Assembly: GCA_003169735.1 (NCBI GenBank)
Contig: PNAP01000030.1
Location: forward strand, 1-49,357
Source of the DNA: Chloroflexota bacterium
GTDB lineage: Bacteria; Chloroflexota; Limnocylindria; Limnocylindrales; CSP1-4
Reading direction: 5' to 3'
Length of the DNA stretch: 49,357 bases
The notes below the pieces were generated by a model. That model did not search any database. It was not told the origin of the DNA and saw nothing but the letters and a program-made list of their open reading frames with translations. A program made the position numbers and the translations under genes. Shown here in pieces: positions 33,646-35,097 of this stretch; position 1 is the first letter of the stretch; the number at the start of each line of letters is the position of its first letter.

Positions 33646-34077
33646 CTACCCCACGCGCCCGAAGCGCCGCACCGGCCAGTACCGGAACCATGGCCGCCCG
33701 ACGATCGTGGCCGGGTCGATCGGCCCGAAGACGCGCGAGTCGGTCGAGGCGTCAGGGGCGTCGCCGACCAGTGCCACTCGGCCGTCAGGCTGGACGGCAC
33801 CGACGCGCTTGATCAGGACCCGCCGCGCATCGCGCGGGTCGGGTACCACGACGAGATCGCCCGTCCGCGCCGCGCGGCTGCGGAACGCATCGGGATCGAC
33901 CAGCAGCCAATCTCCGTCGACCAGGGTCGGCACCATGCTCGACCCCCGGACGGCGACCCTCGCGGACCAGGAGCGGAGAAGGCGCCGGAAGTCGGCCGCC
34001 CCCCCCGATGACGTGGAGCGCCCGCCGCCTAAGCGGTGTGCAGTCGGGTCGCGGCCGGCCCGCCGGTCTCGCGCCAC
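33646..34077 (-). CDS. sodX: Nickel superoxide dismutase maturation protease (S26/S24-like)
   Basis: A protease of about 143 aa when read from GTG 34077, overlapping the end of sodN by 49 nt. The signal-peptidase-like core is VRGSSMVPTLVDGDWLLVDPD (Ser in GSSM), VLIKRV (catalytic Lys) and LVGDAPDASTDSRVFGPI, with a terminal PWFRYWPVRR. SodX-type proteases remove the leader of NiSOD so that the free N-terminal His can bind nickel. No ATG, GTG or TTG lies between the sodN stop and the Met in SSM. The only in-frame upstream start is the GTG inside sodN, and an 8-C run (33999-34006) lies between them. Confidence 0.8.
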   Translation of the reverse strand: MARDRRAGRDPTAHRLGGGRSTSSGGAADFRRLLRSWSARVAVRGSSMVPTLVDGDWLLVDPDAFRSRAARTGDLVVVPDPRDARRVLIKRVGAVQPDGRVALVGDAPDASTDSRVFGPIDPATIVGRPWFRYWPVRRFGRVG

Positions 34078-34454
34078 ATCATGTCGATCTTGTCGATCAG
34101 GTCGAGCAGCTTCTGGGCCTCGGCGATGTCGACCGTCCGCTTCACCTGGGACGCCTGCTTGGACGCCTTCCAGCACACGTCGTGCAAGTCGGGGAACTTC
34201 TCGACGTGCTCCGGCTTGAAGTAGTCGTGCCACATCACGTCGATGTGGTGCTTGGTCAGCTCGGCGCGCTCCTCCTTGACGGCGAGGCAGCGGGTACGGA
34301 ACACGTCGTCGGAGGACTCGGCGTACTTCTGGATGATCTTGTAGCACGACTCCGCCTCGATGCGGGCCTGCGCCGGGTCGTAGACACCGCACGGGATGTC
34401 GCAGTGGGCGTGGACGGTTCGGCGGGGCGCGAACGCGCGCAACAGGATGTTCAT
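34029..34454 (-). CDS. sodN: Nickel superoxide dismutase
   Basis: A 141-aa NiSOD precursor. A 16-residue leader (MNILLRAFAPRRTVHA) is followed by HCDIPCGVYDP, the nickel hook in which His1, Cys2 and Cys6 of the mature protein bind Ni. The four-helix body includes SCYKIIQKY, LTKHHIDVMWHDYFKPEHV and KLLDLIDKIDMMWRETG, all typical of this family. It dismutates superoxide. ATG 34454 follows GAGGAG at a good distance. sodX follows immediately and overlaps, the usual two-gene arrangement. The leader lacks a Sec or Tat signal, so the enzyme is probably cytoplasmic. Position 4 of the hook is Ile rather than the common Leu. Confidence 0.96.
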   Translation of the reverse strand: MNILLRAFAPRRTVHAHCDIPCGVYDPAQARIEAESCYKIIQKYAESSDDVFRTRCLAVKEERAELTKHHIDVMWHDYFKPEHVEKFPDLHDVCWKASKQASQVKRTVDIAEAQKLLDLIDKIDMMWRETGGPAATRLHTA

Positions 34455-34578
34455 CTTCAGCTCCTCGACCATGCGGACGCTCGTGGACGTTTGGCGCGAA
34501 CTCGGATTCGAGCATCCGTCGGTCCCGATTGTGCGCCGCCCGGCCGGGGCGTGCACACGGCGGAGCGCTCGCTGGTCG

Positions 34579-34584: not shown

Positions 34585-34590
34585 GAGGCC

Positions 34591-35097
34591 GTGACCACCC
34601 GTTCGACCCTCCTGGCGGGCGCACTGCTGGCCAGCGTCGCGGTGGCCTGTGCGTCGGCAAGCCCGTCACCGACACCCGACCCGAGCGACAGCGCTGGTGC
34701 CTCGCCGACGGTCGCGCCGCTGGCCACCATGCGCCTTCTCGCGAGTTTCCCGCCGGAGGCCGGCTGGCGACCGATCCTCGAGCTCGTCTCGGGCGCCGGC
34801 GGCCTGGACCATGGCACCTTCGACCCCAGCGGCACGTACCGCATCGAGTTCGACTGCGTCGGCGCGGGCAGCTTGAAGGTGCGCGTCGAGTCGGCCGTCG
34901 TCGCCAGCCGCGACTGCACGCTCGACCAGATCGACGATCCGACCATCATCCACGGTGCCAGCGGCAAGCTGCGTGCCGCCGTCACGGTCGATGTCGCGGC
35001 CACGGCGGGCGCCACCAGCGGCGGCGCCACGGCCACGGCCACGGACGCCAACGTCGATTGGATCGTCCGCTTCGAGGTGCCCGTTCCTACTGAGTGA
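34591..35097 (+). CDS. Small lipoprotein, unknown
   Basis: A 168-aa protein starting VTTRSTLLAGALLASVAVACAS, a signal peptide with lipobox VAVAC, then a Ser/Pro/Thr linker. The ectodomain has WRPILELVSGAGGLDHGTF, YRIEFDCVGAGSLKVRVES and SRDCTLDQIDD, so two cysteines (in FDCVG and RDCTL) could form a disulfide. An Ala/Thr-rich stretch precedes the C-terminal strand DWIVRFEVP. The family is not recognised. It starts leaderless 6 nt after TACCCT. It ends convergently with the TauE gene, overlapping it by 11 nt. Confidence 0.62.
   Translation: MTTRSTLLAGALLASVAVACASASPSPTPDPSDSAGASPTVAPLATMRLLASFPPEAGWRPILELVSGAGGLDHGTFDPSGTYRIEFDCVGAGSLKVRVESAVVASRDCTLDQIDDPTIIHGASGKLRAAVTVDVAATAGATSGGATATATDANVDWIVRFEVPVPTE

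Follow-up and report, generated by a model that had tools for sequence, protein, structure and literature searches.

A nickel superoxide dismutase operon from a Chloroflexota bacterium with no ordinary sodX start codon after the sodN stop

The closest described system to the locus analyzed here is the sodN-sodX operon of Streptomyces and other bacteria, and its gene neighbors in Streptomyces have been described (PMC3919588). Our locus comes from a Chloroflexota bacterium and lies on the minus strand of contig PNAP01000030.1; the whole stretch of 49,357 nucleotides that was analyzed is referred to as the window. Adjacent genes, the same nickel hook, and a SodX of the same S26-like family are common to both. 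Unlike the Streptomyces-type operon, the window carries a sodX without an ordinary start past the sodN stop, placed in the −1 frame relative to sodN and open into sodN. Two other systems offer partial parallels. Coupled starts 38 nt (fr) and 50 nt (MS2) inside the upstream gene are established experimentally for coat/lysis pairs (PMC12548453), and the likeness lies in a downstream gene whose translation would begin in another frame, about 50 nt before the upstream gene ends. However, the window provides a candidate GTG only, known here from sequence, and no significant hairpin. The sigR gene of Streptomyces coelicolor, whose GTC start is held low by IF3, is similar in being an oxidative-stress gene of high-GC DNA with apparently no suitable ordinary start. 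A strong ribosome-binding site precedes the GTC of sigR (PMC5472188), whereas none was seen at the sodX of the window, in which no GTC occurs in the sodX frame from the sodN stop to the conserved domain either.

The gene pair is itself an ordinary, known Ni-SOD/SodX operon, and what is unusual is the translation start of sodX. The sodN gene (34029..34454, minus strand) encodes a nickel superoxide dismutase of 141 residues that scored above the curated cut-offs of both TIGR02753 (145.8 bits, cut-off 90) and PF09055 (136.8 bits, cut-off 25). Its short leader ends before the HCDIPC nickel hook of HCxxPC type (34389..34406, minus strand, read directly from the sequence), which would be exposed once the leader is cleaved. 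Read from the overlapping GTG, sodX (33646..34077, minus strand) encodes an S26 maturation protease of 143 residues, which matched PF10502 with 65.2 bits and TIGR02754 (sod_Ni_protease) with 65.7 bits against a cut-off of 63.25, a small margin that is backed by adjacency to sodN. These matches bear out the nickel hook and the S26-like protease recognized in the first-pass annotation. The catalytic serine codon is AGC at 33937..33939 (motif SMVPTL, S47 invariant in the alignment), the catalytic lysine codon is AAG at 33808..33810 (motif IKRV, K90 invariant), and the sodX stop lies at 33648-33646, all on the minus strand. Profile match and alignment show an intact catalytic domain in which every invariant residue is kept and neither a stop nor a frameshift occurs. 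The sodX product is a predicted SodN maturation protease with the SodN leader as its putative substrate. A profile search of the draft genome (3.06 Mb, 124 contigs, 92.65% complete) gave no second SodX, the sole other match being a 40-residue partial, and Rfam, promoter, and terminator scans of the sodN-sodX region gave no matches. On the plus strand, a divergent frame at about 34590-35097 beginning MTTRSTLLAGALLASVAVACASAS looks like a lipoprotein, and its wider ORF had no Pfam match.

The sodN stop TAG (34031-34029, minus strand) is separated from the catalytic serine codon by 89 nt. This interval contains no ATG, GTG, or TTG in any of the three frames, a stronger result than the absence of a start claimed in the first-pass annotation. 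Nor does a start codon share bases with the sodN stop in the manner of ATGA or TGATG, the junction reading TTAG / GGC; some other family members do show GTGA, ATGA, or 1-nt overlaps at the sodN-sodX junction. The nearest ordinary in-frame start is a GTG within sodN (34075..34077, minus strand), which gives a 49-nt overlap. It had been described as the only in-frame start; the frame and the overlap hold, but it is the nearest rather than the only one, as four further GTG codons (−148, −205, −319, and −364) and one ATG (−487, at 34515) lie farther upstream in this open frame. The conserved region of SodX (33646..33984, minus strand) runs from RRLLRSW, which contains Arg32 of the alignment and the first invariant column, to the stop, and begins about 15-17 residues ahead of the serine. 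With a 7-row alignment as input, AlphaFold2 gave a model of mean pLDDT 74; numbering from the GTG, order sets in at about residue 26, and residues 7-25 have pLDDT below 50. Given this conserved domain and ordered model, SodX translation must begin upstream of about 33984, which leaves only GTG 34077 as an ordinary candidate and an ACG (34012..34014, minus strand), 25 codons ahead of the serine, as a near-cognate one. Among the near-cognate codons considered (CTG, ATT, ATC, ATA, and ACG), this ACG alone occurs in frame with sodX in the interval from the sodN stop to the conserved domain.

A run of eight C on the plus strand, or eight G in the mRNA (33999..34006), starts 22 nt past the sodN stop and does lie between GTG 34077 and the catalytic core, as noted at first pass. 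Homopolymers are prone to sequencing error and the assembly is a draft in 124 contigs, so an error in this tract, or slippage on it, might conceal a normal start. A tract of seven or nine bases would join sodX to the sodN frame or to the third frame. The former is closed by the sodN stop, the last stop of the latter lies 53 nt ahead of the sodN end, and neither contains an ATG, GTG, or TTG after its last stop; only the eight-base tract links sodX to a frame that has a start. An indel or slippage would therefore worsen the problem rather than help. The proposed sequencing indel hiding a normal start fails on these grounds, as does the proposed control of SodX level by slippage, since the sodN stop precedes the tract and the connected frames have no start. 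In addition, no frame contains an ATG, GTG, or TTG past the sodN stop, and same-genus relatives without the C tract are also start-less. We consider error or slippage highly improbable, and both were rejected by the frame analysis. The tract itself is not remarkable, as the window contains one run of eight C or G where dinucleotide shuffles predict 3.9 (sd 2.5), and it is irrelevant to the sodX start.

To place the junction among relatives, PF09055 was searched against 107 genomes of the family, 88 of which contained sodN, and against 400 further genomes of the phylum, 103 of which did. The relatives found by sequence are Chloroflexi MAGs, CSP1-4 among them. DNA around sodN was extracted and the junctions were scored, yielding 105 distinct GC-rich sodN-sodX junctions after two loci were left out, one for an N run (L115) and one for a mis-assigned motif (L014). 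A junction was called start-less when no ordinary start lay at least 8 residues ahead of the serine. Eleven junctions were start-less (the window, L004, L008, L007, L012, L089, L010, L070, L073, L079, and L177), and seven of these had no start whatever. The only same-genus relatives with a sodN-sodX pair, L004 and L008, both have no start after the sodN stop. The sodX frame is in the −1 phase relative to sodN in 10 of the 11 start-less junctions, compared with 36 of the 94 others (Fisher p 0.001, or 0.009 counting one per genus), a bias that we treat as a lead because the test was post hoc and the lineages are related. This phase is where starts near or over the stop (ATGA, GTGA, TGATG) fall, and in it a reading frame can also continue out of sodN uninterrupted by the sodN stop. 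As relatives repeat the missing start in the same phase, the arrangement is a recurrent one and not a local error. A missing start arises easily by chance in such DNA, since 99 of 210 control frames (47%) had none. The true frame is start-less in only about 10% of junctions, which indicates that selection usually keeps a sodX start and sometimes does without it; a start-less sodX must then be served in some other way.

Several individual junctions had features of their own. In L004, three tandem near-copies of an 18-nt unit of the CTGAACGGTCGGAGTCGG type occupy offsets −4 to about +50 and span the sodN stop and the sodX 5′ end, and in-frame duplication may be how this junction grows. In L007, a Shine-Dalgarno-like AGGAGGA lies at the sodN stop (GGTAGGAGGACG), yet no in-frame ATG, GTG, or TTG occurs before the SodX serine. 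Two genomes, G011 (L009/L044 with L116) and G106 (L043 with L114), each carry a second, divergent sodN, and no sodX was found within 1 kb of it. The queries used also detected no SodX within 1 kb of many sodN loci from other parts of the phylum (L122-L128, L182-L188, and others), where it may be absent, located elsewhere, or too divergent.

Composition was examined for signs of translation ahead of the serine. From the sodN stop to Ser-48, position-wise GC in the start-less loci was 0.81/0.71/0.81, compared with 0.80/0.70/0.82 in translated N-termini and 0.76/0.73/0.76 in untranslated spacers. This coding-like pattern, although a weak effect, points to translation of the stretch from the sodN stop to the serine in start-less loci. 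Within one genus (L070, L073, and L075), a substitution test gave a clear third-position bias only from the serine onward and little or no codon-position bias in the first 60 nt past the sodN stop, and did not locate the coding start.

If sodX were instead decaying, with its start lost and SodN left unprocessed or cut by another protease, the lack of a good start would be expected, and several sodN loci do have no SodX detected nearby. Some cyanobacteria also carry sodN without sodX (PMC8346466). However, the intact catalytic domain, with every invariant residue in place and no stop or frameshift, and the persistence of the arrangement with full-length sodX frames in same-genus species at about 60% identity make decay improbable. 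Programmed −1 frameshifting near the end of sodN, which would yield a SodN-SodX fusion, fits the nearly constant −1 phase of start-less sodX genes and the frame that is open across the sodN stop. Against this, the last 90 nt of sodN contain no X XXY YYZ heptamer in 10 of the 11 start-less loci, and the DNA sequence of the sodN tails is not conserved. Frameshifting was rejected for the window, which is among the loci without a slippery heptamer, and we regard it as very unlikely overall.

The explanation that we favor, tentatively and at slightly less than an even chance, is that SodX translation begins within sodN, most likely at the −1-frame codon GTG 34077, and that it is coupled to sodN and gives a low dosage. 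SodX initiation would then depend on, and be throttled by, sodN translation, with little protease made per SodN, and the additional N-terminal residues of SodX, about 25, would form a disordered tail before the conserved helix RRLLRSW. The first-pass annotation had raised such a coupled overlapping start, and of its three options this is the best supported, although it is unproven and background sodN genes carry the GTG as well. It had also named relatives with the same overlapping GTG as evidence to look for against its reading of the locus, and a GTG homologous to 34077 was found in sodN of both same-genus relatives, L004 (−61) and L008 (−52). The GTG within sodN follows from the codons for a conserved Met-Trp or Ala-Trp (xxG TGG) and occurs in 4 of 10 start-less loci compared with 26 of 94 others; being forced by SodN codons and not enriched, it is not independent evidence for an overlapping start. 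Nearly all relatives likewise have an open −1 frame in sodN, so an open frame by itself is no proof. Judged against the long overlaps of MS2 and fr, the window does have a GTG at −49 in the other frame, as background sodN genes also do. No Shine-Dalgarno-like sequence precedes GTG 34077. The last 160 nt of sodN contain no ordinary start in the sodX frame in start-less L012, L070, L073, and L079, and one common mechanism would need something else. A review (PMC12548453) cites one reporter study in which a −25 nt overlap abolished coupling, which counts against coupling here. A 9-bp helix is predicted over GTG 34077, but an MS2-like hairpin masking the GTG was rejected, as the helix does not exceed chance expectation (p 0.14) and is not common to relatives.

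These weaknesses of GTG 34077, which is forced, not enriched, without a Shine-Dalgarno-like sequence, and without a usable counterpart in sodN of four start-less relatives, make a non-standard start at or after the sodN stop a serious alternative and a close rival, which we nevertheless consider somewhat unlikely. SodX would begin at ACG 34014 in the window and at CTG in relatives, and the weakness of such a start would limit the amount of protease. The relatives' CTG lies over TGA as CTGA, or just ahead of the stop at TTC TGG, and each of the 10 −1-phase start-less loci, including the four without a usable start in sodN, has a CTG or ACG close to the stop or beyond it. ACG 34014 lies just upstream of the ordered helix, and its distance from the serine is within the usual range of the ordinary starts of relatives. 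A GTC start for dosage control is proven for sigR of high-GC Streptomyces (PMC5472188). On the other hand, CTGA is not enriched, being found in 5 of 10 start-less loci and no more commonly than in others, and a Shine-Dalgarno-like sequence is absent. The phase bias would also be left unexplained unless the codon overlaps the stop, and the overlapping codon in the window is TTA. To our knowledge, ACG starts are very rare in bacteria. Weighing these points, we infer GTG 34077 as the more probable start.

As the evidence stands, the locus is mainly an annotation puzzle within a well-known operon, in a lineage represented here by draft assemblies of metagenome type alone. A broader reading, which we consider rather doubtful, is that sodX in this Chloroflexota family has repeatedly, in seven sampled genera, come to do without an ordinary start codon when it lies behind sodN in the −1 frame, and that a phase-dependent route coupled to sodN, using either a non-standard start codon or reinitiation by the terminating ribosome, would fix a low ratio of protease to enzyme. 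If this is true, routine start calling would fail in about one in ten of the GC-rich sodN-sodX junctions sampled, and a maturation enzyme would be kept scarce through the loss of its start codon.
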